A stretch of DNA of 64,000 nucleotides from Colwellia sp. C2M11 (GTDB taxonomy: Bacteria; Pseudomonadota; Gammaproteobacteria; Enterobacterales; Alteromonadaceae). Both the position numbers and the translations under genes were made by a program. The stretch covers positions 1 to 64,000 of the forward strand of contig NZ_JAHKQD010000038.1 of NCBI RefSeq assembly GCF_018860915.1. The letters run 5' to 3'. The notes beneath the pieces are model-generated. The model did no database searches. It was not told where the DNA came from and saw nothing but the letters and a program-made list of their open reading frames with translations. How positions within the stretch are numbered: the first letter of the stretch is position 1; every line of letters begins with the position of its first letter. Positions 1,342 to 20,962 of the stretch are shown piece after piece.

Positions 1342-1371
1342 TATTGTCATAATATTATCGTAAACTAAAAC

Positions 1372-1397: not shown

Positions 1398-1479
1398 AGG
1401 TATAATGGTCTTGGAAATTGAATATACTCAATTTCATGCAATATCAACTGTAATCATTCTAAATAAAGTAGTAATAATC

Positions 1480-2592: not shown

Positions 2593-2595
2593 CAC

Positions 2596-4702: not shown

Positions 4703-5716
4703 TTGACACCAACAAAAGTAATAAATATTAACTCTGATCAACAAGTGAATGGTATTGATGAAGAACGCTTGCGCCAGTCTATTGGTAAAAGTAAACAATC
4801 AATTATCGATCAGAGTGAACATATTAAAAAAATGGCTGATTATGTTGATGATGGATTAGCCAAGGCATTAAAAATAATTTTTTCCTGTAAAGGAAAACTG
4901 ATTATTTTAGGCATGGGCAAGTCTGGTCACATAGGCCGAAAAATTGCCGCAACAATGGCTTCAACGGGTACACCTTCATTTTTTGTTCACCCGGCAGAAG
5001 CGTTCCATGGTGATTTAGGCATGATACAGCCGGAAGATACCGTCATTTTAATTTCAAACAGTGGTGAAACTGACGAAATACTAAAATTAATCCCGTCATT
5101 CAAAAATTTTGGCAACAAGATAATTGCCCTAACAGGCAACTCGACCAGCACGTTAGCAAAAAATTCAGATGCCATCTTGAATGTAAAAGTTGAACGCGAA
5201 ATCTGCCCTAATAACTTAGCACCAACCTCTTCCACAACCGCCACCTTAGTGATGGGAGATGCATTAGCTGTGGGGTTAATTGATCTTAAAGATTTTCAAC
5301 CACACCACTTCGCCCTTTATCATCCTGGCGGTAGCCTTGGCAAAAGGCTACTAACAAAAGTAAGCGATGTAATGCACACGAAAGGTTTACCTTTTGTGAA
5401 CGAAGCAAATACCATGCATGAAGTTATTTTAACCATGACTCAATCAACGTTAGGTGTGGCGATAGTACTTAAAAATGACGAATTAGCTGGTGTTATAACA
5501 GATGGTGACTTAAGAAGAGCCTTAGCACAAGATATTGATATTAATACCCGCACAGCGGCAGATATGATGACCATTGTACCCATCACTATTTCACAAGATG
5601 AAATGTTAGCCAGTGCAGAAGAATTAATGCGAATAAACCATATAAAACATGTACTTGTCACTACCAGTAAAAATGAAAATTGCGTTGTTGGTGTATTGGA
5701 ATACTTTCAGGCATGA
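4703..5716 (+). CDS. kpsF: Arabinose-5-phosphate isomerase of the capsule locus (KpsF/KdsD family)
   Basis: Interconverts ribulose-5-phosphate and arabinose-5-phosphate, the first step towards Kdo. The 337 residues show the family order: a SIS domain (about 40-180) with GMGKSGHIGRKIAATMASTGT and SNSGETDE, the conserved HPGGSLGKRLL segment, and two C-terminal CBS domains with VITDGDLRRAL in the first. Length matches KpsF/KdsD. The start is TTG at 4703, supported by AAGGA at 4692-4696. As the first gene of a kpsF-M-T-E-D run it is the capsule-dedicated paralogue rather than the lipopolysaccharide one. Its stop overlaps the start of kpsM in an ATGA arrangement. Confidence 0.92.
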   Translation: MTPTKVININSDQQVNGIDEERLRQSIGKSKQSIIDQSEHIKKMADYVDDGLAKALKIIFSCKGKLIILGMGKSGHIGRKIAATMASTGTPSFFVHPAEAFHGDLGMIQPEDTVILISNSGETDEILKLIPSFKNFGNKIIALTGNSTSTLAKNSDAILNVKVEREICPNNLAPTSSTTATLVMGDALAVGLIDLKDFQPHHFALYHPGGSLGKRLLTKVSDVMHTKGLPFVNEANTMHEVILTMTQSTLGVAIVLKNDELAGVITDGDLRRALAQDIDINTRTAADMMTIVPITISQDEMLASAEELMRINHIKHVLVTTSKNENCVVGVLEYFQA

Positions 5717-6498
5717 TAAAAGTACAAAAAAGAACAGCATTGCAAATTATGAGCGCCACTGTTCACGCACTGTTAATGCGAGAACTGAAAACCCGTTTTG
5801 GTGCAAACCGTTTAGGTTATTTTTGGGCTATTGCCGAGCCAGTAGCACAAGCATCGGTAATGGCACTAATATTCACCTTACTCGGACGAACTAGCGTATC
5901 TGGTATTCCTATTGCGTTATTTCTTTTTACCGGCATTTTACCGTTTAAATTTTTTAGTAAGCTAATACCTCAAATTGGCGCAGCCGTGAATGCCAACAAG
6001 GCGTTATTTACTTATCGACAAGTAACCGCCATCGATCCAATAATTACCCGAGTGTTAATTGAAACCGTTACCTTTATTGTTGTTTATGTATTAATACTTG
6101 GCACCATGGCTTGGCTAGGGTTTGAAGTATTGCCCGATGATTTATTAGCGCTCTTGGCTGCCTGTTTTATATTATTGACCATGGCTGTCGGTATTGGCTT
6201 ACTGCTATGTTGCGCCATTACTTATTGGCCTGATGCTACCAAACTATTTGCCATGATTATGTCACCGATGTTTTTTATCTCCGGCATTTTATATTGCGCC
6301 ACCATGATCCCTGAACAATATTGGTATTTATTTAGCTGGAACCCTATTTTTCATTTAATTGAACTAAGCCGAGATGCGTTTTTTGTTTCTTATACAACCC
6401 CTATTGGCGATTGGTACTTTGTTAGCTTCGTTGCCTTAACGAGCATTGCACTTGGCCTAATGGCGTTTAGAATTAACCGTCAACGATTTATTAATTAA
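5713..6498 (+). CDS. kpsM: Capsule polysaccharide ABC exporter, permease subunit
   Basis: Inner-membrane subunit of the ABC-2 type exporter that carries finished capsule chains across the inner membrane. The 261-residue protein has the family N terminus (LMRELKTRFGANRLGYFWAI), about six hydrophobic helices and the FFISGILY segment typical of KpsM/Wzm-like permeases. I use the ATG at 5713, which overlaps the kpsF stop codon; the in-frame ATG at 5680 lies within kpsF coding sequence and would add eleven unconserved residues. Works with KpsT, which starts 48 bp downstream. Confidence 0.92.
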   Translation: MIKVQKRTALQIMSATVHALLMRELKTRFGANRLGYFWAIAEPVAQASVMALIFTLLGRTSVSGIPIALFLFTGILPFKFFSKLIPQIGAAVNANKALFTYRQVTAIDPIITRVLIETVTFIVVYVLILGTMAWLGFEVLPDDLLALLAACFILLTMAVGIGLLLCCAITYWPDATKLFAMIMSPMFFISGILYCATMIPEQYWYLFSWNPIFHLIELSRDAFFVSYTTPIGDWYFVSFVALTSIALGLMAFRINRQRFIN

Positions 6499-6546
6499 AA
6501 TGAAATTTCTTATATTAGACTTTCTTATCATAGGTTTTACGAGCTC

Positions 6547-7218
6547 ATGATACATTTTGACAATGTCAGTAAATATTATGCAACAAAACAAGGACGGCAT
6601 TACGTTCTGAAAAATGTTAACTTAGCATTACCAACTGATCGTAATATTGCGGTACTAGGCCCGAACGGTGTTGGTAAATCAACATTAATAAGAATGCTAG
6701 GTGGTGCCGATTTTCCCAGTAAAGGGGAGATAACATCAGAGCAAAAAATATCTTGGCCATTAGGTTTGCAAGGTGGCTTACAAGGCACGATGAGTGCTCG
6801 TGAAAATGTCCGTTTTGTTGCTCGCATACACGGTTATAAAAATACCAAACCAATCGAGCAATTAGTAGCAGACTTTGCTGAAATTGGTAAGTTTTTTAAT
6901 GAGCCGGTAAAAACCTACTCTAGTGGCATGAAAGCCCGGGTGGCTTTTGGCTTAACCATGGCTTTTGATTTTGACTTTGACGTATTACTAATTGATGAGC
7001 TGGGCGCAGTGGGTGATGCTAATTTTCGCCATAAAAGTGAGGCGCTATTAAAAGAAAAATATGAAAAAACTAAGCTTATTATGGTGAGTCACTCTATGGG
7101 TGAGCTACGTAAAAACTGCCAAGCGGGGTTAGTTATTATTAACCAAAACCTAAAATATCATGCAGATATTGAGTCTGCAATAAAAGAATATAATGAACAC
7201 TATGTCACAACCAATTAA
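6547..7218 (+). CDS. kpsT: Capsule polysaccharide ABC exporter, ATPase subunit
   Basis: ATP-binding partner of KpsM. The 223 residues contain a Walker A motif GPNGVGKST at 38-46, the signature-type segment YSSGMKARVAFG near 121-132, Walker B VLLIDE followed by GAVGDANF, and a switch His in MVSHS. The signature is SSGMK rather than LSGGQ, which is normal for the KpsT/Wzt polysaccharide exporters. No C-terminal carbohydrate-binding extension is present, consistent with group 2 capsule rather than O-antigen export. The end of the gene overlaps the start of kpsE by up to 26 bp. Confidence 0.93.
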   Translation: MIHFDNVSKYYATKQGRHYVLKNVNLALPTDRNIAVLGPNGVGKSTLIRMLGGADFPSKGEITSEQKISWPLGLQGGLQGTMSARENVRFVARIHGYKNTKPIEQLVADFAEIGKFFNEPVKTYSSGMKARVAFGLTMAFDFDFDVLLIDELGAVGDANFRHKSEALLKEKYEKTKLIMVSHSMGELRKNCQAGLVIINQNLKYHADIESAIKEYNEHYVTTN

Positions 7219-8440
7219 ACCATCAGACAAACAACAAGTTAATAAAAATAGTAAGCAGGAACTGGGCTCTGTTGCACGTAAAGCACGCAAGCTTAAGCGT
7301 GAGCCATTACAATTTATTGCTGACTCTAAAGCTTATATCAAAGCAAAGAAAACCGCCTACTACACCGCAGCAAAGCTCGGCTCGTTTATTATTGTAGTTG
7401 CTGCAGTAATCGCCATTATCGCTTACTACACCCTAATAGCGTCACCGCGTTATGTTAGCGAAAGTCAATTTGTAGTAAAAGAAATTGGCTCAAACGACAT
7501 TCCACTGGCGGGTTTAATGTCTATTGCCAGTAGCTCACCAGGTGTGCGTGACGCTTTAATTTTGCAAAAATATATTCAGTCACGCTCGATGGCAGTCGCC
7601 CTTGAAGAAAGTGTCGGTTTAAAACAGCATTATCAAGCCACTGACTGGGACTGGTTTAGTCGGCTTACCGGCAATGGCAGTGTTGAGCAGTATCACGCCT
7701 ATTATCAAGATCATATTCTGGTCCATTACGATGAAATGTCAGAAGTACTGATGGTTGAAGTACAAACCTTTGATGCTGAATTTTCGTTAACAGTGGCCAA
7801 TGAAATTATCGCACTAAGTGAAACCTTAATTAACCAGCTTGGGCAAAAAATGGTAACTCAGCAATTAGATTATGCCCAGCAAGATGTTAACCGCGCTTAT
7901 AACGAGCTAAAAAAATATCAAAATGAACTGATTAACTTTCAAGATAAATTCAAACTATACAGCCCTGAAGAACAAGGCAGTGCCATAGTATCAGCAATGA
8001 ACGCCCTTGAAGGAAAAATAATAGAAGAAGAAACTAAACTTAAATCGTTATCGTCTTTTATGCGTGCCGATTCTGCCGATATAAAAGCCATAAATAGAAA
8101 TATAGACGCATTAAAGACACAATTAGCGCAAGAAAAAAACCGTTTAACTAATCAAGAACAGCAATCGTTAAATAAAATAAATTTAGATTATCAAGAAATT
8201 AAGTTAAATAGCCAGCTAGCCGCAGACCTTTATAAATCGACCTTAGCAAGCTTAGAGCTGATTCGTAGTGATGCTTTTAGAACGCTAAAACATTTACTGG
8301 TAATAGAGCAGCCCATTTTAGCGCAAGAAAATAAATACCCACGTCGTTTATACAGTATTTTTACCTGGTTTATCGCCATGCTTCTAGTCTATGGCGTATT
8401 AAAAATGGTAGTGGCCGTTATTAAGGAACACAAAGAGTGA
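7193..8440 (+). CDS. kpsE: Capsule export inner-membrane/periplasmic adaptor (KpsE, PCP family)
   Basis: Polysaccharide co-polymerase type protein linking the KpsMT transporter to the outer-membrane component. The 415-residue protein has a basic cytoplasmic N terminus, a first membrane helix around residues 60-87 ending in the family-typical IASPRYVSESQFVVKE, a long periplasmic coiled-coil region (about 210-360, rich in Gln, Lys, Glu) and a second helix near the C terminus (about 387-408) after PRRLYSIF. The start at 7193 overlaps kpsT; a second in-frame ATG at 7202 is equally possible. The stop codon overlaps the GTG start of kpsD. Confidence 0.9.
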   Translation: MNTMSQPIKPSDKQQVNKNSKQELGSVARKARKLKREPLQFIADSKAYIKAKKTAYYTAAKLGSFIIVVAAVIAIIAYYTLIASPRYVSESQFVVKEIGSNDIPLAGLMSIASSSPGVRDALILQKYIQSRSMAVALEESVGLKQHYQATDWDWFSRLTGNGSVEQYHAYYQDHILVHYDEMSEVLMVEVQTFDAEFSLTVANEIIALSETLINQLGQKMVTQQLDYAQQDVNRAYNELKKYQNELINFQDKFKLYSPEEQGSAIVSAMNALEGKIIEEETKLKSLSSFMRADSADIKAINRNIDALKTQLAQEKNRLTNQEQQSLNKINLDYQEIKLNSQLAADLYKSTLASLELIRSDAFRTLKHLLVIEQPILAQENKYPRRLYSIFTWFIAMLLVYGVLKMVVAVIKEHKE

Positions 8441-10152
8441 AAAATTTGTTTATAAAAAGCATCGCCAGCGCGCTAATGCTAGTGCTAACCAGTAATATTG
8501 CTTCCGCTGCAGTAACCATCACCAAAGATGAAAGCAATGAGGTTAAGCAAGCAATATCACTGACTAGTGATAACAGTAATGAAAATAACAATAACAAAAG
8601 CGAAAATGCTAACCACAATAGTAACAGTAACAACGCTAACCAAGCTTATGGCCAATGGTTATTTACCGGTGGCTTTAAAGAAAATTCATTTGTTGGCAGT
8701 AACCCAAATTATAAAATCACCCAAGGTGATAGTTTGCTTGTGCAATTATGGGGTGGCATCGATTATCAAGCAGAAGTAAAAGTTGACCCTCAAGGTAATA
8801 TCTTTATTCCTAAAGTTGGCCCAATTAAAGTATTAGGGGTTAGTAACGCAGAAATTAATAACGTGGTATTAAAAGGCATAAAGCGCGTTTATAAATCAAA
8901 TGTTGAAGCTTATGTTAATTTAATGTCTAGCCAAACAGTAAAGGTGTTCTTATCAGGGTTAGTAAATAAACCTGGCTTATATGAAGGACAAAGTGCTGAT
9001 AGCATTTTACGTTTTATTGATCTTGCTGGTGGTATAAAAGCTGAACTTGGCAGTATGCGCCATATTGAAGTAAAGCGAAATAACCAAACAAAATATACCA
9101 TCGACTTATACGACTTTATTCAACATGGCACTATGCCCGCTATTCAATTACAAGAAGGTGACGTAATTTTTGTTGCTGCTAAACATGGCGACGTCACCAT
9201 TGAAGGCGATGTTGGTTTTAGTGGCACATACCAGCTAAAAGAAGATACCGCTAAATTAAGTAATATCTTAAATGCGGTTATTACCAAGAAAAAAGCCACC
9301 CATATTACGGTGATTGCACCAGAAAATAGTGATGGTGAAAATGAATTATCAGTACAACAATATGCCATGGGTGAGGCGTTGACCAATAACACCATTGAAG
9401 TCAAAGCCGGCTCACTTATTAAAGTATCTTCACAGCTACGCGCCAAAAAAATTAGTGTTGAACTCATTGGCGAGCATAACTCTCAATTTGAAATTGTATT
9501 ACCTTGGGGAGCAAGCTTAGCGGACTTATTGGCTGATGTTGAATATACCAAGCTCTCTAATAAAGACGCTATTCAGTTATTTAGAGCCTCAGTAGCAACA
9601 CGCCAAAAAGATATGCTACTCGCCTCTTTATCAGCATTAGAACAAAGTGTATTAACCGCGCGTTCACAAACCAATGAAGCCGCACAATTACGCTCAGCTG
9701 AAGCAAGCACTATATTACAGTGGATTGAAAAGGCAAAATTGGTAGAGCCTAAAGGGCAAGTATTATTATCCGACGGCTACAATGCTTCGCAAATTATTTT
9801 ACAACAAGGTGACCGCATTGTGGTACCAACGAAACGTAACTTAGTCATGATCCATGGCGAAGTGCTCTTCCCTACTGCTATCGCTTACAACAACCAGATG
9901 AATATTAATGAGTATATCGCTAAGGCAGGCGGTGCTACTGATGATGTAGATAATATGAATATATTAATCATGAAGCCCAATGGCGACTTTGTTGATGTAA
10001 ACGAACACTTAAACAGTAAAAAACAGATTAACCCTGGGGATGAAATATTTGTGTTAGCGAAACCTGATGCTAAATCATTCCAGTTAACCAAAGATATAAC
10101 ACAAGTAATGTATCAAATAGCAGTAAGTGCAGCTGTGATATTAGCATTGTAA
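8437..10152 (+). CDS. kpsD: Polysaccharide export protein KpsD-like (outer-membrane export)
   Basis: Periplasmic/outer-membrane component of the capsule exporter. The 571 residues start with a signal peptide (MKNLFIKSIA to ASA, cleavage near residue 24) without a lipobox, as in KpsD and unlike lipoprotein Wza. A low-complexity Asn/Ser linker at about 45-70 follows, then the Poly_export domain (YKITQGDSLLVQLWGG, VDPQGNIFIPKVGPIKV) and SLBB-type beta-grasp repeats (VFLSGLVNKPGLYEG, VTIEGDVGFSGTYQL, LVMIHGEVLFPTAI). The GTG start overlaps the kpsE stop. The length matches E. coli KpsD (about 560). The Asn-rich linker is longer than I would expect for the family. Confidence 0.9.
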   Translation: MKNLFIKSIASALMLVLTSNIASAAVTITKDESNEVKQAISLTSDNSNENNNNKSENANHNSNSNNANQAYGQWLFTGGFKENSFVGSNPNYKITQGDSLLVQLWGGIDYQAEVKVDPQGNIFIPKVGPIKVLGVSNAEINNVVLKGIKRVYKSNVEAYVNLMSSQTVKVFLSGLVNKPGLYEGQSADSILRFIDLAGGIKAELGSMRHIEVKRNNQTKYTIDLYDFIQHGTMPAIQLQEGDVIFVAAKHGDVTIEGDVGFSGTYQLKEDTAKLSNILNAVITKKKATHITVIAPENSDGENELSVQQYAMGEALTNNTIEVKAGSLIKVSSQLRAKKISVELIGEHNSQFEIVLPWGASLADLLADVEYTKLSNKDAIQLFRASVATRQKDMLLASLSALEQSVLTARSQTNEAAQLRSAEASTILQWIEKAKLVEPKGQVLLSDGYNASQIILQQGDRIVVPTKRNLVMIHGEVLFPTAIAYNNQMNINEYIAKAGGATDDVDNMNILIMKPNGDFVDVNEHLNSKKQINPGDEIFVLAKPDAKSFQLTKDITQVMYQIAVSAAVILAL

Positions 10153-10284: not shown

Positions 10285-11583
10285 ATGATATTAATAGTTG
10301 GAGCAGGGATTACTGGTTTAACATGTGCAGCATGTTTAACTGGTGAAGTTGTTGTGGTTGAAGCTCAGGAAGCAGTAGGTGGTTACTGTAGAACAACTAA
10401 GAGAAATGGTTTTGTCTGGGATAGAGCAGGACATTTTTTTCATTTTCAGAACCCTGATATTAAAAAATTTTTCCAAAAAGAAATTCCTGAAGATAGATTT
10501 GTAAAGGTCAAGAAGAAATCTGCAATACATATGGAAGATATTGGTAGTATAGATTTCCCTTTCCAAAAAAATATTCATCAATTACCTAAAGATCTTTATG
10601 TTAATTGTCTTCTTGATTTGTACAAAGCTGAAAAAAATAATAGTGAATATAGTTCATTCAAAGAGTTCGCTTATGCCACAGCAGGAAAAAGCATTGCTGA
10701 GTTGTTTTTAATCCCTTATAACGAAAAACTATACGCTTGTGATTTAGATGAATTAGACAAAGATGCTATGGGTCGATTTTTTCCTAAAGCATCTTTTGAA
10801 GACGTGCTATTAAATGCCGATCAGAAAGATAATGACTCTTATAATGCTGATTTTTCATATCCACGTGAAGGAGCAGAAGAATTTGTTAATGTGTTACATA
10901 ATTATGCAAACAAAAGTGCAGATATTCGTTTAAATACGACGATTGAGTCTATTGATATCGAGAAGAAAGAAGCACGATTAAGTGATGGTACTTGCGTAAA
11001 ATATACAGCTCTCATAAACACATCTCCATTTAATAAGTTTTGTGAATTAGCGTCTATAGATAGTACTAAAGCAAAATTAAGTGCAAACAAGGTAGCGGTT
11101 TTCAATCTAGGCTTTGATAAAAAGAGCCAACACGATATGCATTGGGTCTATTTTCCTGGGGATGAAATTTTTTATCGAGTTGGCAGTTACCATAATATTC
11201 ATTCAACTGACCGAGCAAGTCTTTATGTAGAAATAGGCTTGAAATCAGGAGACATAATAGATGAAAAAAGTATGTTAGCTAATGTATTAAAAGATCTTGA
11301 ACGAACCAAACTAATTAATACCGATATGAATTTAATAGATTATGAGTTTATTGTTATGGATCCTGCTTATGTACATATAAATTCACAAGGTGAACAGTTT
11401 AAAGAAGAACAAAAAAAATCTCTAGAAAAACACAATGTATACACAGCTGGTCGCTATGGTAATTGGACCTACTGTAGTATTGAAGACAATATGGTAGAAG
11501 CTCGAGATTTATCAAAAGCTATCGCATTAAAACTTCAAAACTGTGCCAATGATGAAAATCATTTTGTCAATATATTCGAATAG
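10285..11583 (+). CDS. FAD-dependent oxidoreductase resembling UDP-galactopyranose mutase / protoporphyrinogen oxidase fold
   Basis: A 432-residue flavoprotein. The N terminus has the dinucleotide-binding fingerprint VGAGITGLTCAACL, an acidic residue after the second strand (VVVEAQEAVGGY), and the conserved WDRAGHFFH. The C-terminal part has GRYGNWTYCSIEDNMVEARDLSKAI, where FAD-dependent mutases and amine oxidases keep the flavin-contacting GRxxxW motif. In capsule and O-antigen loci this architecture usually belongs to UDP-galactopyranose mutase-like enzymes that make furanose sugars. It is longer than classical Glf (about 370 residues) and diverges from it, so the substrate is uncertain. 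AAGGAG lies ahead of the ATG. It is followed 9 bp later by a glycosyltransferase gene. Confidence 0.7.
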   Translation: MILIVGAGITGLTCAACLTGEVVVVEAQEAVGGYCRTTKRNGFVWDRAGHFFHFQNPDIKKFFQKEIPEDRFVKVKKKSAIHMEDIGSIDFPFQKNIHQLPKDLYVNCLLDLYKAEKNNSEYSSFKEFAYATAGKSIAELFLIPYNEKLYACDLDELDKDAMGRFFPKASFEDVLLNADQKDNDSYNADFSYPREGAEEFVNVLHNYANKSADIRLNTTIESIDIEKKEARLSDGTCVKYTALINTSPFNKFCELASIDSTKAKLSANKVAVFNLGFDKKSQHDMHWVYFPGDEIFYRVGSYHNIHSTDRASLYVEIGLKSGDIIDEKSMLANVLKDLERTKLINTDMNLIDYEFIVMDPAYVHINSQGEQFKEEQKKSLEKHNVYTAGRYGNWTYCSIEDNMVEARDLSKAIALKLQNCANDENHFVNIFE

Positions 11584-11592
11584 TAGAAATGT

Positions 11593-13638
11593 ATGTTTAA
11601 CAATTTAACCAATCAACCTAAACTTTCGGTCATACTCCCTTGCTATAATGTTGAGCAATATATTAAAGAAGCATTAGATAGTGTGTTAGCACAGACATTA
11701 TCTGATATTGAAATAATTCCTGTCGATGACGGTTCGCCTGACAATTGTGGCGAAATAATAAAGCAATATAGCGAAAAATATAAAAATATAAAACCTATTT
11801 TCAAAAAAAACGGGGGCTATGGCTCGGCAGTAAATGCTGGTTTATCAGTAGCTACAGGTGAATATATAGCTATTTTAGAGCCTGATGACTATATTATGGA
11901 AGATTACTATAATATTTTATATCTTGAAGCTATTTCTGATGGATTAGATGTCTGTGGTGTAAACTCTTATTGTGAAATTAGGGATGGTGCCCATCCAAAG
12001 TTAATTCAATCTCATTGGGTAGATAATCCAGATTACTTATCATTTGAAGGCGTTAATGACTATTTTGCTTCTGGTAATGTAGGTATAACTCTAAAGATTT
12101 ATAAAAGGTCATTTATTATTGAAAAGAATATAGCCTTACATGAAGACTTGAGGTCGTATCATGATGTCCCTTTTGTTGCTGAAGTTTTATCTAAATCGGA
12201 AAAGACTCGAATTATTATTGGCACAGGGTATTATTACCGTAAAGATGTTATTACCTCTACAACAAAGTCGAAGACTAATTTCATATCAATTGTTGAAGCA
12301 GTAGACAAAGTTAAAGACTTACTAAGTAATCCATTGTTACGAAATAAACGACGTGCTGCACTTGCGGGTTATTGTCTAAGACATTTAATACACTATTTCA
12401 AATTAGCTAATTCCCGTATTCACTCAAAAGCTACTGCAGAATATATTAAATCAAATATTATTGATATTCTTCAAGAAAATAAAGAAATATACATTCATAC
12501 TGCCTCTAAGAATGTAATTAATAATATTAGTCCTAATTATAATAATCTAAAATTATTGAAGGCTAACGTAATAAAGTTTAATCAAAGCCCATTATTTACT
12601 ATAGATACATACACGCAGGTTAAGTCTCTTTATTCTAATCTCAGTCAATTATACTTTTTTTCGTATTACGCTTATGCATTAGGTAAAGATGAATATCTGA
12701 AAGAGTTTAGAGAGCGTATAGCTGCTATAATTAATTATATTCCTGACTTGGTCAGTATGCCAATCACCCACTTTATCGAAAAGTATATTTCTGACGCTAC
12801 TTACGATTTTCCAAAAAATTATAACCAAAGATGGTATATATCTTTTACATTATATTTATTTAAACACGTGAATAAAGACCGAATTTCACTGGCCTTTGAT
12901 TCAATAAACGAAGCTAGAACAGATACAACTATTGCACGTTTTTTTCCTGAACTTACAAATAAATTTCCATGTGAATACTCATATTTAAGTGAGTCATTCA
13001 GAAAAACTCAAGTTATTCGCCAATCAGTTATTCATAAGCACGAAGAGTTCTTGGCATATATAAAAGGTAAGTCAATTGCTATTGTAGGAAATTCCCCATC
13101 TGAGCTGGGTAAAGGGCATGGTAAAGAAATTGATAGTTACGATGTGGTGATACGATTTAATAATTATTCAACTGAAGCTAAGTATGCAGATGATTATGGA
13201 AGAAAAGTGAATGTGTGGGCTATAACTCCTGGTATTGAATCTCTAAACTATCAAGAAGCATTCTACGAATATGATTTTGTGATGTCTCCAAAACTAGGGC
13301 TACAGCTTCATGAAGAACGATTATCTATTATTTATAATTATATTATTGCCGGTGGTAATTATTTTCAAATTGATACCATTGATTGTCGTCGATACTCTGA
13401 CTTAATTATACCTAGTGTGGGGTTATACGTACTCCACTTTTTAATGAAGAATAAAGCGAGTATAGGAAATGTAGGGGTTTATGGCTTTTCACCAAAAACT
13501 GCAACGAAAGACAATAGGCATTATTTTACAGGTGATCCAGTTCCAACTAGTAAAGTTCGTTTTCATGATTGGGATAGAGAAGAGCTTTGTATAAATCATT
13601 TGAAAAATACTTTTAAAGAACATAACAGGAAATTTTAA
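11593..13638 (+). CDS. Two-domain glycosyltransferase: GT2 fused to a GT29 sialyltransferase-type domain
   Basis: The 681 residues contain two catalytic units. Residues about 8-330 are a GT-A GT2 transferase (LSVILPCYNVEQYIKEALDS, PVDDGSPDNC, and EPDD as the DxD-type metal site). Residues about 490-665 match the animal/plant GT29 pattern: sialylmotif L (IAIVGNSPSELGKGHGKEID, then VVIRFNN), motif S (PSVGLYVLHF with GVYGF), motif III (HYFTGD) and motif VS (HDWDREE, H-x4-E). All four are in the correct order and spacing. GT29 enzymes use CMP-activated nine- or eight-carbon acids. No CMP-sialic acid genes are in the window, but a CMP-Kdo synthetase lies 4.5 kb downstream, so Kdo transfer is a reasonable inference. 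Probably a capsule chain-building enzyme. Confidence 0.8.
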   Translation: MFNNLTNQPKLSVILPCYNVEQYIKEALDSVLAQTLSDIEIIPVDDGSPDNCGEIIKQYSEKYKNIKPIFKKNGGYGSAVNAGLSVATGEYIAILEPDDYIMEDYYNILYLEAISDGLDVCGVNSYCEIRDGAHPKLIQSHWVDNPDYLSFEGVNDYFASGNVGITLKIYKRSFIIEKNIALHEDLRSYHDVPFVAEVLSKSEKTRIIIGTGYYYRKDVITSTTKSKTNFISIVEAVDKVKDLLSNPLLRNKRRAALAGYCLRHLIHYFKLANSRIHSKATAEYIKSNIIDILQENKEIYIHTASKNVINNISPNYNNLKLLKANVIKFNQSPLFTIDTYTQVKSLYSNLSQLYFFSYYAYALGKDEYLKEFRERIAAIINYIPDLVSMPITHFIEKYISDATYDFPKNYNQRWYISFTLYLFKHVNKDRISLAFDSINEARTDTTIARFFPELTNKFPCEYSYLSESFRKTQVIRQSVIHKHEEFLAYIKGKSIAIVGNSPSELGKGHGKEIDSYDVVIRFNNYSTEAKYADDYGRKVNVWAITPGIESLNYQEAFYEYDFVMSPKLGLQLHEERLSIIYNYIIAGGNYFQIDTIDCRRYSDLIIPSVGLYVLHFLMKNKASIGNVGVYGFSPKTATKDNRHYFTGDPVPTSKVRFHDWDREELCINHLKNTFKEHNRKF

Positions 13639-13642
13639 TATT

Positions 13643-15319
13643 ATGCATTATATACATTGCCACCAAGGCATCGATATGAATAAAGGCGGAACAGTTGGCT
13701 ATTTATCTAGTTTGCTTGATGGAATGGAGCGACTAGGTACATTTAAGAGTGCTGATGGCCTCCGCCATGCTTTTTTATTTCCTGATATTGGGCCTGATGA
13801 TCGTTTACCTAACGATTTAATTGAACATTTAAAGTTTAACACACCATTTACTTCGGCTTATGAAGATACTCACCACAAGAAATTCTTTGATAAAAGTGAG
13901 TGGTTTCATTCTTCAATACCATTATCTGAAGCACTTAAAGTTAACTTAAGAAAAATCACGTCTGTTCATATTCATGGAGCTTATAACTTCTTACCTGTTT
14001 ATAATTTTCTTAGGCTTTGCGGTATTGAAAATGATGTTGTGAAAATATTAACAACACATAATCCATGGAAACCAGAATTAGAAGATATTTTCCATTTTAA
14101 TAAAGCTAAAACCCCTGAGCAATTACAGCGAGATCTGCCACAAGAAGCAGCTTATCGTCACTATCTCCAAATGAGAGACGAATTCGCTTTTAAAATGGCC
14201 GATGTCTTATTTTTTCCATCAGAACATAGTATGGATGGCTACCATGAAAGTTGGCCTGAATTTACAGAAATAGTAAAAGATAAACCAGTATATTTTGCTA
14301 CTACAGGAACTGAAGCTAAAGAAGTTAATGTACCTAGAAATGCAATGCGAAAGTCCTTAGGAATTCCAGATGATGCAAGAGTATTCTTATATTTAGGACG
14401 CTTTATCCCTATGCGTGGCTTTGATTTATACACTGAAGTTGCTAACAAAATTTTAAAAACGCATAAAAATGCTTACTTTCTTGCTGTAGGTGAAACACGT
14501 AAAACCCCTGCAATTAATCACGAACGTTGGATTGAAGTGGGACATACTTCAAGCCCTGGTGATTTTATTAACATGGCTGATGCATGTGTGATGGCTAATC
14601 GTGGTTCATATTTTGACTTATCAATGGTTGAGGCTTTGGCGCAAGGTATTCATTTAATTGCAGCAAAAGTTGGTGGCTATAAGTACCTTGAAGGAAAAAC
14701 TAGTGGTGTAACATTCTTTGAACGTGAATCGATGGAAGGGTTATTCCAGGCTTGTGAAGCATTTTGCCAAATGAGCAATAAAGATATTAATCAAGGTAAA
14801 CAAGATAACTTAGCACTTTATACTAAAGAAATGACTCCTGAGAAATTTGCGCAAGGCTATCAAGCGACCATCGATAAAATGTATACTGACTTAGGAATTA
14901 AGTCTAAAGATCGAGATATTGTCCGTTCCAGTCAATTTTTTTCTCAACCATCAAATAGCAAACCGAATGCAGCTCCCTCTGCTCCTCTGGTTAAACAAAC
15001 GATCTCAGATAAAGTGGCAAGTAAAAACCTGAACCAGTATAAAACAAAAGAGCATCAAGCGATGAGTTTGTTTAAACAAGGTCAATATCAAGATTCAATT
15101 GATTTATTTTATAAAGCAATTAACGAAAAACCTAAGAACGCAAGGTTAAAAAGACTATTAGCCGAAGTCCTACTTTCGGCAGGGCGACGTAGTGAAGCAA
15201 TAAAGCAACTAGAAATAGCAAGAGAATTATTACCTAATAACAAAAATCTTCGTAAAAGATTTTATACAATGCGTTATGGTAAATTATTATTCGGACTAGC
15301 TGATAAACCATTCCAATAA
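13643..15319 (+). CDS. GT4-type glycosyltransferase with C-terminal TPR repeats
   Basis: The 558-residue protein has a GT-B fold. The N-terminal half contains glycine-rich NKGGTVGYLSSLLDGMERLG. The C-terminal half has RVFLYLGRFIPMRGFDLYTEVA and the nucleotide-sugar motif SMVEALAQGIHLIAAKVGG, where the conserved Glu binds the donor ribose. After a Ser/Pro/Lys linker (about 425-465), residues 470-545 form about two tetratricopeptide repeats (ALYxxGQYQDSIDLFYKAI-like units), perhaps holding the enzyme in a capsule assembly complex. No signal peptide or membrane helix, so cytoplasmic. Donor sugar unknown. The start is ATG at 13643, 4 bp after the preceding stop. Confidence 0.82.
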   Translation: MHYIHCHQGIDMNKGGTVGYLSSLLDGMERLGTFKSADGLRHAFLFPDIGPDDRLPNDLIEHLKFNTPFTSAYEDTHHKKFFDKSEWFHSSIPLSEALKVNLRKITSVHIHGAYNFLPVYNFLRLCGIENDVVKILTTHNPWKPELEDIFHFNKAKTPEQLQRDLPQEAAYRHYLQMRDEFAFKMADVLFFPSEHSMDGYHESWPEFTEIVKDKPVYFATTGTEAKEVNVPRNAMRKSLGIPDDARVFLYLGRFIPMRGFDLYTEVANKILKTHKNAYFLAVGETRKTPAINHERWIEVGHTSSPGDFINMADACVMANRGSYFDLSMVEALAQGIHLIAAKVGGYKYLEGKTSGVTFFERESMEGLFQACEAFCQMSNKDINQGKQDNLALYTKEMTPEKFAQGYQATIDKMYTDLGIKSKDRDIVRSSQFFSQPSNSKPNAAPSAPLVKQTISDKVASKNLNQYKTKEHQAMSLFKQGQYQDSIDLFYKAINEKPKNARLKRLLAEVLLSAGRRSEAIKQLEIARELLPNNKNLRKRFYTMRYGKLLFGLADKPFQ

Positions 15320-15340
15320 ACCCTATAGGATAAACAAATT

Positions 15341-17431
15341 TTGTTGGAAAAAAGCAAAGAAATAAGCGTTATTGTTCCTGTGCGAATACAAGATAGTCGT
15401 TCTGATATTATTGAACGGCTAGCTTTTTGCATTAGACCAGAAGCTAAGAATATTGAATACATTATTGTTGATGACGGCTCTTTGCCTGATGATGCGCTAA
15501 TGTTGAAAAAACGATGTAAAGCATTAGGTATGATCTATGTATGTACCCATGCTAGTAACGCATCTTTATTCAATTTAGCAAGAGCAAGAAATTTAGGGGC
15601 TCAATCAGCTAAGGGAACTTATGTTCTATTTTTAGATGTAGACTTAATTCCCTATCCTGGCTTTTACGATGATCTTAAAATAGAAATAGAGCTTATTGCT
15701 CTTAACAATAATACAGATTTATTTATCATGTGCCCCGTTGTATATCTCAATGACGCGGGTTATGCAGAATATCAAAAACACCCTAAACACCTTAAAAAAT
15801 ATTTTGCATCTGAGCTATTAATTCAAGGTGATGTTAACAGGGTAGAAAAATATTCACATGGTACCTCATGCATATTAGTCAACCGTTGTTATTACTTATC
15901 TATTGGTGGCCAAAATGAGAAATTTTCAGGCTGGGGCTATGAAGATTATGAATTTACAACCCGACTGATGAATTTAGCAAGATTATTCCCTAAACCAACA
16001 AAATATGAAAGTATGGTTGGTAACTTTATGAATATTAGAGAATATAAAGGTTGGAAAGCTGAATACCGTCTTTATGGCGCAAGATTAGCCCTTAAAAGTA
16101 TGTACCTAATCCATGTACCTCATAATGAAGATGGTGGCTTTAAAAGTAATGTAAAAAATAATCAAACACTACTAAACCAATCCTTAAAAATTGAATGGAA
16201 AAATCAAAAAATACAAGGAATTATACCTCAACAAGAATATTCGTTAGTTTTAAGTCGTAATCCTTTTTGTCTACATTACAAATTAAATACGATATTAGGT
16301 CAATGGGAGTATGTTGATTACACTGAAAGTAAAAGCCTCGATGACTTAATCTATATTTTTGAAAATAGCAACTTTACCCAAATCGTTTTTCCAAATCCAT
16401 ACGGAAATACCTTGCTACGTAGCCTTTATGAATACTGTAATCAAAAAGAAATTAAATATATAGTTTGTGAACGAGGCGCTTTACCTGGTTCAATATTCCA
16501 TGACTCAAATGGTTTTCTTTTTGATAGTTCTTCATACCATCCACTACACTGGGATCGACAACTATCTGAACAAAATAATAATGATGTAGATGAGTATTTA
16601 CAAACATTAAAACAAGGTGATTCTACCTTAGAACAGCAGCCTCAACGAATAACTAAAGATGATTTTTCAGTTAAATTAGATATTACTGAGAGCAGCTTTA
16701 AAGTAGGTTTAATCCTACAAACAGAAAATGATACTGTAATTAAATTTTTTGGTAGAAAATTCAAAAAATTAAACGATGTTAAGTTATTTATTGAAAAAAT
16801 CATAAATAAACACTGTAATAATATTAGCTTTATATATAAAAATCATCCGCTCGAAACGAATCCAATCAATATAACAGGAGCCACTTGCGCTGATGAATTT
16901 CATATACACGATATAATAGATCATTGTGATGCAATCCTAACGGTTAACTCTGGCGCAGGTCTAATTGCTGCACTGTTAGGGAAACCTGTATTTTTACTTG
17001 GTGATTGCTGGTATGCGCAACCAGGGATTGCTTGCCAAATAAACTCTGAAGATGAATTTCTGAGTAACTTAAAGCGCTTTTCACCATCTAAAGAAAAAAG
17101 GTATAGATTTACATATTACTTGCGCTATCAATTTTATTCCTTCGGTTATCAACATACCGTATTACATCAAAAGAAAGCATCTAAAATCAATGCGACTTAT
17201 CAGATTGATTATGAAGAAGTTCAAACTAAAAAATTTGGGCGATTAATGTTTTTAAAGAAAGATTACAGTATTGGCTTTAAGAGTATTTTATTTCAACAAT
17301 ATAGCCATAAATCTCTTTTACTTGCTTCTAAAAATAAAGATTTTAAAAAATCTCTTCGTAATAAAAAAATTAAAAAATTGAAAGAAACACCTATAAAGTT
17401 TTTCTTGGATGCAATTCGAAATATTTATTAA
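15341..17431 (+). CDS. Bifunctional glycosyltransferase: GT2 plus KpsS/KpsC-like capsule synthesis domain
   Basis: The 696-residue protein starts at TTG 15341 (AGGA at 15327-15330). Residues about 8-230 are a GT-A transferase: ISVIVPVRIQDS, IIVDDGS, FLDVDLIPYPGF (DxD), and GWGYEDYEFTTRL, the C-terminal motif shared with chondroitin/heparosan-type polymerases. Residues about 455-590 resemble the Capsule_synth region of KpsS and KpsC: FIYKNHPLE, then TVNSGAGLIAALLGKPVFLLG and a Tyr-containing segment before the end. The capsule locus has no separate kpsS, so this second domain might supply a Kdo-transferase-like or other acid-sugar activity; that is inference. The last 100 residues are very Lys-rich, suggesting a membrane-surface contact. 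Confidence 0.75.
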   Translation: MLEKSKEISVIVPVRIQDSRSDIIERLAFCIRPEAKNIEYIIVDDGSLPDDALMLKKRCKALGMIYVCTHASNASLFNLARARNLGAQSAKGTYVLFLDVDLIPYPGFYDDLKIEIELIALNNNTDLFIMCPVVYLNDAGYAEYQKHPKHLKKYFASELLIQGDVNRVEKYSHGTSCILVNRCYYLSIGGQNEKFSGWGYEDYEFTTRLMNLARLFPKPTKYESMVGNFMNIREYKGWKAEYRLYGARLALKSMYLIHVPHNEDGGFKSNVKNNQTLLNQSLKIEWKNQKIQGIIPQQEYSLVLSRNPFCLHYKLNTILGQWEYVDYTESKSLDDLIYIFENSNFTQIVFPNPYGNTLLRSLYEYCNQKEIKYIVCERGALPGSIFHDSNGFLFDSSSYHPLHWDRQLSEQNNNDVDEYLQTLKQGDSTLEQQPQRITKDDFSVKLDITESSFKVGLILQTENDTVIKFFGRKFKKLNDVKLFIEKIINKHCNNISFIYKNHPLETNPINITGATCADEFHIHDIIDHCDAILTVNSGAGLIAALLGKPVFLLGDCWYAQPGIACQINSEDEFLSNLKRFSPSKEKRYRFTYYLRYQFYSFGYQHTVLHQKKASKINATYQIDYEEVQTKKFGRLMFLKKDYSIGFKSILFQQYSHKSLLLASKNKDFKKSLRNKKIKKLKETPIKFFLDAIRNIY

Positions 17432-17449
17432 TTATACAAGGCATAAAAG

Positions 17450-18079
17450 ATGGCTATTATAGATAACGGTAATAATAATTCTGTTCATTTTAAATTTCAT
17501 GAATATAAGGAAACTAGAGCTAACATAACCATTAATGGTGATAACAATAAAATAGACTGTTTAGGCCAATTATATGGAAATGGCAAATTAAATATTACGA
17601 TAACTGCTTCTGGGTGCTCTATTATTTTAGAGTCTGGCATAATTATTAACCGAGGCCTAAATATATATATAGCTCCTTCAGGCGGAGGGACACCTTCAAA
17701 GGATTGTAATGTAACTATTGCAAAAGATGTGTTTTTTAATGGTGTCTCCACTCTAACTCTCAGCGAGTCAAATAACCGTATTGATATAGGTGAAGGGTGC
17801 TTGTTGGCAGGAGGAATAACTTTCTCTACATCAGATAGTCATCCTATTTATGATTTAGATAGTAACCTCCGAGTTAACCCAAGCGCTAGTATTTTTATAG
17901 ACGCTAATGTCTGGATTGGCTCTAACGTACATTTTCTAAAAAAAGCATATATTCCTTCGGGGTCTGTAGTTGCAGCTCATAGTATTGTAACTAGAAAATT
18001 TGACACCCCTAATATAGCTGTAGCAGGAAATCCAGCCAAGGTTGTTAAACATAATATTAGATGGCAGAAAAAAGTATAA
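17450..18079 (+). CDS. Left-handed beta-helix (hexapeptide) acyltransferase
   Basis: A 209-residue protein of the LbetaH acyltransferase class. Hexapeptide-type turns run through the middle (ITINGDNNKID, ITITASGCSII, VTIAKDVFFNG, RIDIGEGCLLAGG, IFIDANVWIGSN). The segment FSTSDSHPIYD contains the conserved catalytic-type His, and the C terminus ends with the diagnostic AGNPAKVVKHNIRW. These enzymes usually transfer acetyl groups from acetyl-CoA to sugar hydroxyls or amines, so O-acetylation of the capsule repeat unit is the likely job. The N-terminal third is unusually Asn-rich. It lies 18 bp after the bifunctional transferase and is the last gene of the AT-rich central block. Confidence 0.82.
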   Translation: MAIIDNGNNNSVHFKFHEYKETRANITINGDNNKIDCLGQLYGNGKLNITITASGCSIILESGIIINRGLNIYIAPSGGGTPSKDCNVTIAKDVFFNGVSTLTLSESNNRIDIGEGCLLAGGITFSTSDSHPIYDLDSNLRVNPSASIFIDANVWIGSNVHFLKKAYIPSGSVVAAHSIVTRKFDTPNIAVAGNPAKVVKHNIRWQKKV

Positions 18080-18160: not shown

Positions 18161-18928
18161 GTGAAATTTAAAATAGTAATTCCTGCCCGTTACGGTTCAT
18201 CTCGTTTACCGGGCAAACCTTTATTAGATATTGCTGGTAAACCGATGATTTGGCATGTTTATAAGCAAGCGTGTAAAACAAATATTGATAATCAAGACAT
18301 TGTTATTGCCACTGACAACCAAGAAATTTTTGATTGTGCTAGCGGCTTTGGCGCGCGTGTCGTAATGACAAAAGAAAGTCATGAATCGGGAACCGACCGA
18401 TTAGCAGAAGTAGTCACTAAACTGGATTGGCATGATGATGATATTATCGTTAATTTACAAGGTGATGAACCATTAATTACACCTGATGTTATTAAGTTAA
18501 CGGCGGCGACGTTAGCAAACAACGCTCAAGCAGGTATGGCGACCTTAGCCTGTAATTTAGATAACGAAGCTCAATTACATGATCCAAACTGTGTAAAATT
18601 AGTTTGCGATCAAGCAAATCGAGCAATGTATTTTTCTCGTGCAGCCATTCCTTTTGCCCGTGATGGGGTAAATTCAGCATTATTTGATTCAGTAGAAAGC
18701 CCATGGTTACGTCATATTGGTATGTATGCTTATCGTGTTAAAACACTAAAACAGCTAAGCCAGTTGCCAGTAATACTGCTAGAAGAGCTTGAAAAACTAG
18801 AGCAATTGCGCGCGCTGTGGCATGGTATTAGTATTCAAGTGGCCTGCGTAGCTAAAGCACCTGGACACGGTGTTGATACAGCCGACGACTTAAATCGCGT
18901 AAGAGAAATATTACTTAATGCTCAGTAG
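18161..18928 (+). CDS. kpsU: CMP-Kdo synthetase (3-deoxy-manno-octulosonate cytidylyltransferase), capsule-linked
   Basis: Activates Kdo with CTP to CMP-Kdo. The 255 residues start with the nucleotide-binding signature IPARYGSSRLPGKPL and continue with the family segments RVVMTKESHESGTDRLAEV, IIVNLQGDEPLI and YFSRAAIPFARDG, ending HGVDTADDLNRV. Start is GTG at 18161, with AAGGA ten bases upstream. Sequence alone cannot distinguish KpsU from KdsB; its place between capsule transferases and kpsC favours the capsule paralogue. It supplies donor for KpsC and perhaps for the GT29-type domain upstream. kpsC starts 15 bp after its stop. Confidence 0.9.
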   Translation: MKFKIVIPARYGSSRLPGKPLLDIAGKPMIWHVYKQACKTNIDNQDIVIATDNQEIFDCASGFGARVVMTKESHESGTDRLAEVVTKLDWHDDDIIVNLQGDEPLITPDVIKLTAATLANNAQAGMATLACNLDNEAQLHDPNCVKLVCDQANRAMYFSRAAIPFARDGVNSALFDSVESPWLRHIGMYAYRVKTLKQLSQLPVILLEELEKLEQLRALWHGISIQVACVAKAPGHGVDTADDLNRVREILLNAQ

Positions 18929-18943
18929 GAAGCTTATTATTCA

Positions 18944-20962
18944 ATGACCATTTGGATCCAGTCAAAAGGGGTACTTGCCCGCAAACAGCAAATTGAAAGT
19001 TGTCTATCACAGTCATTGTCTTTATTTGTTAAAAATAAAATAGACTCAACTCACGATAGTTTTGCAGGCTGGGGACTTAAAGCGAATACCAATAAAATTA
19101 AGCAACAGGCTAGTGACTTTGGCGTGCCTTATTTACACCTAGAAGATGGTTTTATTGGTTATATTGGCCACCCTGCAAAGCAAGGTCATGCTGTTTCATT
19201 GATTTCAGACTCGCAAGGTATTTATTATGATGCCCGCCAGCCCTGTAATTTAGAATCACTAATAAAAGAACCGTTAAGTGAAGCACAGTTAGCCCGTACA
19301 AATGCCTTAATAAAGCTAATCACTAACAAAGGCATCACTAAATATAATGTTTATGATGCCGCTGAGTTGCCTGAGTTGCTAAAGGAAAAATTGTCGAACA
19401 TTAAGCAACCAAAAATATTAATTGTTGACCAAGTTTCAGGGGATTTATCTATTACCGGTGCGATGGCTGATGAAAGTAGTTTTGTTGCCATGGTCGCGCA
19501 AGCGAAAGCAAATTACCCTAATGCTACCTTGTTAATTCGTACGCACCCAGATACTCGCCTTGGCAAGAAGAAAGGGGTATTAGCTAAACTTATTGCTAAT
19601 GGGGAATTAACCAATGTTGAAATTATTAATGAGCATTGTCATCCTCATGCATTAATCAACGCTGTTGATGCGGTATATACGGTGTCGTCGCAAATGGGGT
19701 TTGAAGCATTATTACTTAATAAGCCAGTTTATTGTTTTGGGTTGCCATTTTATGCGGGTTGGGGATTAACGCACGACCAACTTCATTGTGAACGACGTGA
19801 AAAAATATCACTACAACAGCTGACGTATGCTGCTTTGGTTAAATACTGCCATTATTTTAACCCCGTATTGCAAGTAAAATGTGAACTTGAAGAGGTTATT
19901 AACCTTATTAGTTTGCAACAAAAAGGCAAACCGCCATACCGTCGCCTTTATTTAATTGGTTTTTCGTTATGGAAGCGCGCCTTTATGAAACATTTTTGTC
20001 GACATTTAGCCGATGAACTTGTCTTTACCAAGCAACCACCCGTGACAATTGCTGATAATGACATGCTGCTTGTTTGGGGCGCTAAATACCCTGAATTAAC
20101 TCACTGTTTTCGTGTTGAAGATGGCTTTATTCGCTCAAATGGTTTGGGCGCTAATTTGTGCCGCCCTTCTTCGCTTTCTATTGATAAAGCAGGTATTTAT
20201 TTTGATAATCGCACGCCAAGCGACCTTGAACACGCCTTAAATGAAAATGTATTAACGGTAAATGAGTTAAAACGAGGCCAAGCATTAATTAAGAAGATTA
20301 ACGACACTGGTGTTAGTAAATATAATGTCGGCGAGCACAACGCTATTACGATTAATAATGAGCATAAAAAAATATTACTGGTTATCGGCCAAGTTGATGG
20401 TGATGCATCAATTGTTACCGGTAGTTTAAACATAAAAAGTAATGAAGCGTTACTTTATGCTGTCAAAAAACAACACCCTGATTGTTATATTATTTATAAA
20501 CCGCATCCTGATGTAGTGTCGGGTAATCGAGAAGGTAATGTATCGTTAGAATGCCTATCACAGTGCGTTGATGAACAAATTACCCACCAGTCTTTAACGA
20601 GTTTGTATGCACATATTGATGAATTACATACCATGACCTCGTTAAGCGGTTTTGAAGCGTTATTAAACAATGTTGTGGTACATACTTGGGGACAACCGTT
20701 TTATGCTGGCTGGGGATTAACCACTGATTACTATCCGCCTAAAAGACGATTTAAAACCATCACCTTACCCGAGCTAGTATTCACCACCTTGGTGCAATAT
20801 CCGCTTTATATTGATTGGGACACGGGCTTATGGGTAACACCCGAGTTGTTAATTGATAAAATTGCTGATGGTAAAAATCAAGACATTAAAAAACAGTCGT
20901 TTTGGAATAGAAAATTATTAAAGCTGCAGTATATTTTTGAAATATTTCGTTCAGCGCATTAA
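18944..20962 (+). CDS. kpsC: Capsule beta-Kdo transferase KpsC with two tandem catalytic domains
   Basis: Extends the Kdo linker on lyso-phosphatidylglycerol that anchors group 2 capsules. The 672 residues contain two copies of the Capsule_synth unit. Copy one: LEDGFIGYIGHP, RTHPDTRLGKKKG, SSQMGFEALLLNKPVYCFG, PFYAGWGLT. Copy two: VEDGFIRSNGLGANL, KPHPDVVSGNREG, TSLSGFEALLNNVVVHTWG, PFYAGWGLT. Such duplication is diagnostic for full-length KpsC. Cytoplasmic, membrane-associated. It is the last capsule gene and is followed by a perfect hairpin. KpsC normally works with KpsS, which adds the first Kdo; no separate kpsS is found in the window. Confidence 0.92.
   Translation: MTIWIQSKGVLARKQQIESCLSQSLSLFVKNKIDSTHDSFAGWGLKANTNKIKQQASDFGVPYLHLEDGFIGYIGHPAKQGHAVSLISDSQGIYYDARQPCNLESLIKEPLSEAQLARTNALIKLITNKGITKYNVYDAAELPELLKEKLSNIKQPKILIVDQVSGDLSITGAMADESSFVAMVAQAKANYPNATLLIRTHPDTRLGKKKGVLAKLIANGELTNVEIINEHCHPHALINAVDAVYTVSSQMGFEALLLNKPVYCFGLPFYAGWGLTHDQLHCERREKISLQQLTYAALVKYCHYFNPVLQVKCELEEVINLISLQQKGKPPYRRLYLIGFSLWKRAFMKHFCRHLADELVFTKQPPVTIADNDMLLVWGAKYPELTHCFRVEDGFIRSNGLGANLCRPSSLSIDKAGIYFDNRTPSDLEHALNENVLTVNELKRGQALIKKINDTGVSKYNVGEHNAITINNEHKKILLVIGQVDGDASIVTGSLNIKSNEALLYAVKKQHPDCYIIYKPHPDVVSGNREGNVSLECLSQCVDEQITHQSLTSLYAHIDELHTMTSLSGFEALLNNVVVHTWGQPFYAGWGLTTDYYPPKRRFKTITLPELVFTTLVQYPLYIDWDTGLWVTPELLIDKIADGKNQDIKKQSFWNRKLLKLQYIFEIFRSAH

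Follow-up and report, generated by a model that had tools for sequence, protein, structure and literature searches.

We describe a predicted capsule glycosyltransferase of Colwellia sp. C2M11 in which a glycosyltransferase family 2 (GT2) domain is followed, in the same chain, by a full domain of glycosyltransferase family 29 (GT29), the family of the animal sialyltransferases. The gene lies on the forward strand at 11593-13638 of the stretch of DNA analysed here, which comprises 64,000 nucleotides (positions 1 to 64,000 of contig NZ_JAHKQD010000038.1, assembly GCF_018860915.1) and is referred to below as the window. The C-terminal fusion of a full GT29 domain to GT2 is confirmed. Judging from the sequence, it is moderately probable that the product is a dual capsule transferase that adds a hexose, perhaps galactofuranose (Galf), and an alpha-linked 3-deoxy-D-manno-octulosonic acid (Kdo), and that it synthesizes the serotype-specific portion of a group 2 capsule.

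Domain Architecture and Fold

The open reading frame (ORF) encodes 681 amino acids (aa), in which Pfam recognizes both domains. Its parts, with sialylmotif names and limits as in the initial annotation and in Petit et al. (2018; PMC5811610), are as follows.

11593..13638, + strand: predicted GT2-GT29 dual-domain capsule glycosyltransferase, 681 aa (Pfam)
11617..12252, + strand: GT2 domain, about residues 9-220 (PF00535, Protein Data Bank [PDB] sequence matches, alignment)
12253..12984, + strand: helical linker, about residues 221-464 (poorly conserved; model mostly of low confidence)
12985..13638, + strand: GT29 (sialyltransferase-fold) domain, residues 465-681 (Pfam, profile, model)
13072..13227, + strand: sialylmotif L, about residues 494-545, VGNSP...ID..DVVIRFN (aligned to ST8SiaIII and ST3Gal1)
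13408..13488, + strand: sialylmotif S, about residues 606-632, PSVG...GF
13519..13527, + strand: sialylmotif III, H643-Y644-F645
13564..13581, + strand: sialylmotif VS, H658-D-W660-D-R-E663 (candidate catalytic His; HxW signature)

The initial annotation, made from the sequence alone, had proposed a GT2 enzyme fused to a complete GT29 domain with the four sialylmotifs in order, and both parts of the proposal hold. PF00535 matches residues 12-144 at 7e-33, and PF00777 matches the same full-length protein at 3.5e-14 (53.3 bits against a gathering cut-off of 23); residues 465-681 taken alone match PF00777 at 2.2e-15. This is the single PF00777 place in the 4.17 Mb genome, and none of 14 control genomes has a match. 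We also built a profile from 37 bacterial GT29 domains, with that of the window as the lead sequence; all 37 match PF00777. The profile aligns with ST3Gal1 (2wml/2wnb; 1.7e-19), and motifs L, S, III, and VS all fall in register. The conserved GT29 positions V498-N500, R521, N523, S608, G610, H643, H658, and E663 are present, including the histidines of motifs III and VS. At the position of the disulfide cysteine of animal motif L the alignment places I495; this cysteine was likewise reported as not found in bacterial GT29 (PMC5811610).

The suggested comparison of a predicted structure with the animal enzymes points the same way. An AlphaFold2 model of residues 465-681 has a mean predicted local distance difference test score (pLDDT) of 89.8 and a predicted template modelling score of 0.89. 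In a Foldseek search of the PDB with this model, all 30 chains matched at E<=0.001 are GT29 sialyltransferases, all of them animal (ST8SiaIII, ST6Gal1, ST6GalNAc2, and ST3Gal1 [2wml/2wnb]); the next match has an E-value of 0.016. ST3Gal1 and ST8SiaIII share with the window domain the fold, motifs L, S, III, and VS, and the histidines of these motifs, but structural alignments give only 16-21% identity, and the animal enzymes are membrane-bound, contain disulfides, and use CMP-N-acetylneuraminic acid (CMP-Neu5Ac).

The nearest PDB sequences to the GT2 domain are 3bcv (9.6e-34) and chondroitin synthase (4.3e-26). Its acidic motif, P97-D98-D99, is identical in all six aligned sequences (the protein itself and five relatives), as is D191, although the D191 column is unsure in the Roseibium sequence. 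Neither PF05159 nor KpsS models, which stand for the known bacterial Kdo transferase families GT99/GT107, match the protein in Pfam and NCBIfam searches. Like the known dual-domain capsule polymerases, it carries two transferase domains in one chain. As to the proposal of a dual transferase, the two domains with their conserved motif residues, and five further fusion copies (one with an incomplete GT2), speak for it, and the enzymatic side is a prediction.

The description of GT29 as a mainly eukaryotic family overstated the rarity of the finding. In 2018, 23 bacterial GT29 members carrying the full set of four motifs were described and placed at the base of the family, in trees that, as presented there, gave no function prediction for them (Petit et al. 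2018; PMC5811610), and in 2026 a GT29-GT107 ORF was described in Escherichia coli K6 and linked to a Kdo homopolymer, with which the mass spectra agreed (PMC13171606). Annotations reading "glycosyltransferase family 29 protein" also exist for bacteria in public records.

The Sugar Donor

The initial annotation had noted that CMP-sialic acid genes are absent and had suggested a Kdo-type acid as the transferred sugar. The absence extends, for NeuB, to the whole genome (completeness 100%), in which no NeuB is found at E<=0.001, whereas 9 of the 14 control genomes have a match. The genome has three cytidylyltransferase places, each above the curated cut-off of an NCBIfam Kdo-cytidylyltransferase model; one of them, a KdsB homologue on contig C9, scores 153.8 with TIGR00466 (cut-off 155.2) and exceeds the cut-offs set for two models of KdsB subfamilies. 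The only CMP-ulosonate recognizable in this genome is CMP-Kdo or a closely related derivative of Kdo. A Kdo donor is favoured because NeuB is absent and all three cytidylyltransferases are of KdsB type; the genome of a Neisseria relative discussed below also lacks NeuB.

The argument from the CMP-Kdo synthetase gene of the locus is weak. Any group 2 capsule locus requires Kdo to make the poly-Kdo lipid linker, and KpsU serves that linker. We therefore rejected KpsU as donor evidence: it is expected for linker synthesis in any case and says little about the donor of the GT29 domain.

Gene Context

The genes around the fusion are listed below.

4703..10152, + strand: KpsF, KpsM, KpsT, KpsE, and KpsD homologues (arabinose-5-phosphate isomerase type and ATP-binding cassette [ABC] capsule export)
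10285..11583, + strand: UDP-galactopyranose mutase homologue (3ute 4.7e-21; 4dsg 1e-34 with a profile)
13643..15319, + strand: GT4-type glycosyltransferase with C-terminal tetratricopeptide repeats (TPR) (Pfam)
15341..17431, + strand: second fusion, GT2 and capsule_synth domain (weak matches to the Kdo transferases WbbB [GT99] and KpsC [GT107])
17450..18079, + strand: hexapeptide acyltransferase-like protein (Pfam match below cut-off; perhaps polysaccharide O-acetylation)
18161..18928, + strand: KpsU, CMP-Kdo synthetase (TIGR00466 278.7 bits, cut-off 155.2)
18944..20962, + strand: KpsC-type poly-Kdo linker transferase (PF05159 7.9e-71, two stretches)

With homologues of KpsM, KpsT, KpsE, and KpsD as well as KpsC and KpsF/KpsU, the locus is assigned by gene content to the group 2 ABC-dependent capsule type. 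Its variable region (10285-18079) lies between KpsFMTED (4703-10152) and KpsU/KpsC (18161-20962), and has a G+C content of 31-36%, against 38-40% in KpsFMTED, KpsU, and KpsC. Full-length KpsS genes are found outside the window on two other contigs, C23, where KpsF and a second KpsU-type gene also lie, and C42; a KpsC-type gene was seen on the window contig only, so that the capsule linker genes appear split or duplicated across the genome.

The mutase homologue immediately upstream of the fusion matches 14 PDB sequences at E<=1e-5, all of them UDP-galactopyranose mutases; the closest are of what we take to be the Aspergillus and trypanosome type. It scores 35.2 bits with NCBIfam TIGR00031, below the cut-off of 303.75. 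In an alignment counted by hand, R298 stands opposite Aspergillus R327, and the conserved R164 is one column off R182; with the roles that we presume for these arginines, the ORF is homologous to solved mutases and also conserves substrate residues. We considered a CMP-Kdo mutase that had lost the diphosphate-binding arginine, and dropped the idea since R164 lies one column from that arginine. The homologue is predicted to be a source of UDP-Galf. Mutase matches occur in 66 of 398 sampled genomes of the phylum (own genome included), and the subtype looks tied to the GT2-GT29 cassette because the best match other than itself reaches only 9.9e-22 at 24% identity. Close relatives of this mutase were seen only beside GT2-GT29 genes.

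In the second fusion (15341-17431), the domain that matches PF05159/KpsC also matches 5fa0, which we take to be WbbB, at 1.3e-4. Three ORFs 5' of kpsF (529-4683; 270, 395, and 695 aa) have no Pfam or NCBIfam match at E<=0.001; by eye, the 695-aa product starts like a lipoprotein and the 395-aa product resembles an outer membrane protein.

Related Loci

One scan of a collection of species genomes yielded 38 loci, of which the best six carry a homologue of the gene. Five have the fusion (L036-L040), and in the sixth (L035) the contig starts inside the gene. They come from Roseibium (L036), Neisseria sp. (L038), Helicobacter (L037, L039, and L040), and a small contig labelled Erysipelotrichaceae (L035); the GT29 domain of the last is nearly identical to that of L037, and its label may result from a binning error. 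In L035-L038 the adjacent gene is a GT4 homologue (cut by the contig end in L037); in L039 and L040 a single 231-aa ORF separates the two genes. The mutase homologue is found in two of the six (L036, 62% identity; L038, 46%), as are Kps genes (KpsMTE in L036; KpsMTE and KpsC in L038), and the hexapeptide protein in four (L035, L038, L039, and L040). The GT2-GT99/107-like fusion of the window was not seen in any related locus. Two genes past the Roseibium fusion, a 1172-aa protein (L036:13575-17093) matches Bcs3-type ribosyltransferases.

The Neisseria genome (a metagenome-assembled genome for which a completeness figure is lacking) has no NeuB and one cytidylyltransferase place. A KdsA gene beside its cassette was considered as a capsule-dedicated Kdo gene and dropped, being the sole KdsA of that genome.

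GT29 is patchily distributed among kin of Colwellia sp. C2M11. Counting its own genome each time, matches occur in 6 of 369 genomes at class level and in 18 of 395 at family level. In the family search the window frame (683 residues) is the longest, the others having 222-457. None of the 20 same-genus genomes listed has a PF00777 match, a further 357 unmatched genomes not being sorted by kinship.

Phylogeny and Contexts of Bacterial GT29 Domains

We built a tree of 64 GT29 rows from 58 loci and labelled each row by the genes within its fetched stretch (at most about 10 kb on each side), with label thresholds fixed after the gene table was made and before the tree. Left out were L041, L044, and L045 (no row, an overlapping frame having been taken for each), L114 (on the L060 contig), L131 (a near-copy of L130), and the short L121 and L123. 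Rows beside nonulosonate (NulO) genes form one label class and rows beside Kdo genes another; the NulO label of L129 is nearly tied (Kdo 123, NeuA 145). The seven rows of the GT2-GT29 module form one supported clade (98/94). A tryptophan two residues past the VS histidine, here called HxW, characterizes 18 of the 20 rows in Kdo context and 1 of the 15 in NulO context (Fisher p 7e-7, which ignores kinship and is uncorrected for the choice of this column among the most different of all alignment columns). Among the 29 rows lacking both contexts 16 have it, as do all seven module rows (two labelled Kdo, five unlabelled).

Elsewhere, GT29 genes stand beside NeuB and/or NeuA-type genes (for example in L049, L050, L054, and L059), and the donor is probably not the same throughout the family. 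Other fusions include GT29 with GT4 beside NeuB and NeuA (L049) and DUF4422-GT4-GT29 beside KdsB-type and KpsF genes (L058). In the actinobacterial loci L043, L044, L052, L054, and L069 (Microbacterium) GT29 lies in large ORFs of about 800-900 aa, some beside a NeuB or NeuA-type gene. Weak GT29-like stretches were also seen in phages: KU682439.2, 116942-117133 (Stenotrophomonas phage vB_SmaS-DLP_6), and LR756500.1, 138849-139307 (an uncultured 462-kb phage).

When E. coli genomes were searched at the DNA level with the window gene, no match was obtained. A different arrangement, a capsule region 2 with an acyltransferase, a separate GT29, and a separate GT2, has matches in 7 of 5426 complete E. 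coli genomes, one of them on a plasmid from a pig. A KdsB-type gene and homologues of KpsC, KpsS, KpsM, and KpsT adjoin it in the three loci inspected (L130, L131, and L132), no neu genes are present in the stretches shown of these three, and the plasmid copy of GT29 is HxW.

Comparison with Known Systems

The closest described counterpart is the K6 GT29-GT107 protein, which like the window protein joins GT29 to a second transferase in an ABC-dependent capsule system with Kdo as the proposed donor, but whose partner is GT107, a second ulosonate transferase, rather than GT2, and whose proposed product is a Kdo homopolymer rather than a hexose-Kdo polymer; a term search of the main text of that report finds no mutase or TPR (PMC13171606). 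KrkA of E. coli K13, a GT140 domain with a ribosyltransferase, likewise combines a Kdo transferase with a second glycosyltransferase for a Kdo-containing group 2 repeat. Its Kdo domain is retaining, makes beta-Kdo, and has another fold, whereas GT29 is inverting and would give alpha-Kdo; the same source lists K6, K16, and K24 as alpha-Kdo capsules (PMC12887879). The plant GT29 protein RCKT1/MGP2 of Arabidopsis resembles the window domain as a family member tied to Kdo in a polysaccharide, its mutant losing the Kdo of rhamnogalacturonan II; it differs in being a plant protein with a transmembrane helix, outside capsule systems, whose Kdo role is drawn from the mutant and not from in vitro work (PMC11288761). 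What is new here is the pairing of GT2-GT29 with a GT4 gene, joined in three loci by the mutase homologue; bacterial GT29 and dual-domain capsule transferases were already known. No description of a GT2-GT29 capsule fusion or cassette was found in the titles and abstract openings of the open-licence papers that literature searches listed.

The W/Y capsule polymerases of Neisseria meningitidis carry a GT97 sialyltransferase domain (PMC5811610). They too hold a hexosyltransferase and a CMP-ulosonate transferase in one protein, but their sialyltransferase domain is of another family than GT29 and uses CMP-Neu5Ac.

Proposed Mechanism and Alternatives

We present the following as a hypothesis for the action of the protein. 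The GT29 domain would bind CMP-beta-Kdo in the sialylmotif pocket and transfer Kdo with inversion, H658 being the likely catalytic base, a role we presume from the animal enzymes. GT2 enzymes invert, so the GT2 domain would add a beta-linked hexose onto that Kdo, plausibly Galf from the UDP-Galf of the neighbouring mutase homologue. Since CMP-Kdo is the beta anomer and GT29 enzymes invert (PMC11288761), the Kdo would be alpha-linked. By adding hexose and alpha-Kdo alternately, the protein would elongate a chain that starts from the phosphatidylglycerol-poly-beta-Kdo primer, the product of KpsS and KpsC. The GT4 partner may give a third sugar or, through its TPR, tether the chain to the linker; the hexapeptide protein would O-acetylate the polymer, and KpsMTED would export it.

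Several observations weigh against this hypothesis. The model of the whole protein is poor (pLDDT 52), with the middle (about residues 221-464) poorly modelled. Rows with the Kdo-context label cluster on the tree (8 label changes against a shuffled mean of 17.2, with none of 500 shuffles as low), so the HxW correlation follows phylogeny and is no independent evidence; of the four independent pairs on supported branches, one agrees, none disagrees, and three are uninformative. The label "Kdo context" is also in part a label for "group 2 capsule", because KpsC, KpsS, KpsU, and KpsF serve the linker. Nor does the presence of NeuB track the signature: a NeuB-family match occurs in 40 of 59 GT29 genomes searched, and NeuB is missing from 10 of 31 HxW genomes against 7 of 24 other GT29 genomes, for which reason it was rejected as a donor discriminator across bacterial GT29 genomes. 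Among the related loci, the Roseibium fusion (L036:8892-10514) is without much of the second half of GT2; the GT4 partner has TPR in the window and Roseibium only; the mutase is unseen in four of the six, three of which have little or no upstream sequence; and no Kps genes were seen in the Helicobacter stretches examined. The genomes of Roseibium, the three Helicobacter, and L035 have a NeuB-family match, and a nonulosonate donor is possible in these members. Finally, within the window itself, the capsule Kdo could instead be added by the second fusion (15341-17431).

In the strongest alternative, the GT29 domain uses Kdo but the protein is not the polymerase: it would place one hexose-Kdo unit at the linker junction (as a transition transferase), a side branch, or a cap, while the GT4 and GT2-GT99/107-like proteins make the repeat. 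The locus does hold these two additional transferases, one of them carrying TPR. ABC-dependent capsules are known to involve transition transferases, and in serotypes 3 and 7 of Actinobacillus pleuropneumoniae the polymerase could not elongate the linker without a TPR domain (PMC11666461). We consider this arrangement unlikely, as the constant pair in related loci is GT2-GT29 and GT4, without the GT2-GT99/107-like gene, and the annotated transferases of the E. coli region 2 are GT29 and GT2 only.

A different donor is less probable still. The KdsB homologue on contig C9, which falls just under the TIGR00466 cut-off, makes a Kdo relative such as 8-amino-Kdo possible, and a donor that is not an ulosonate can also be envisaged: GALT29A reportedly acts with a non-ulosonate nucleotide sugar. 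It is an Arabidopsis member of GT29 (PMC11288761). With KpsU encoded in the operon, the cell should have CMP-Kdo itself at hand, and we regard a donor of either kind as improbable. Least probable of all is a sialyltransferase-like enzyme using a CMP-nonulosonate (Neu5Ac, legionaminic, or pseudaminic acid) that is scavenged or made by an unrecognized pathway; the family's animal members, the loci L049, L050, and L059, and the frequency of NeuB in GT29 genomes lend it some support, but neither the own nor the Neisseria genome has NeuB, the own cytidylyltransferases are of KdsB type, and the VS signature of the window differs from that of NulO-context rows.

Significance

Which enzymes place alpha-Kdo in capsules is still a question in the literature (PMC7387560; PMC13171606). 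A Maf/CstII-like protein has been predicted for the alpha-Kdo of K15, and the alpha-Kdo transferases of K6, K15, and K16 were left to further work (PMC7387560); for the alpha-Kdo of K16 and K74, a Kdo transferase of the inverting type would be required (PMC13171606). The dual transferase that we favour for the window, adding hexose and alpha-Kdo, suggests a broader and more speculative picture, which we put forward tentatively and think somewhat doubtful: that bacterial GT29 holds a large Kdo-using HxW branch of inverting alpha-Kdo capsule transferases, here joined with a mutase and GT2 for a Galf/alpha-Kdo capsule, and that Kdo use, which the plant RCKT1 would share, could predate sialic acid use in the family, the animal sialyltransferases deriving from a Kdo-type enzyme.

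The plant enzyme RCKT1 was described by its authors as hard to test, owing to expression, donor, and acceptor (PMC11288761). The GT29 domain of the window, from a genome without NeuB, offers a tractable test of CMP-Kdo use by GT29 enzymes. It may also serve as a tool for making Kdo glycans, and it bears on the origin of the animal sialyltransferases.

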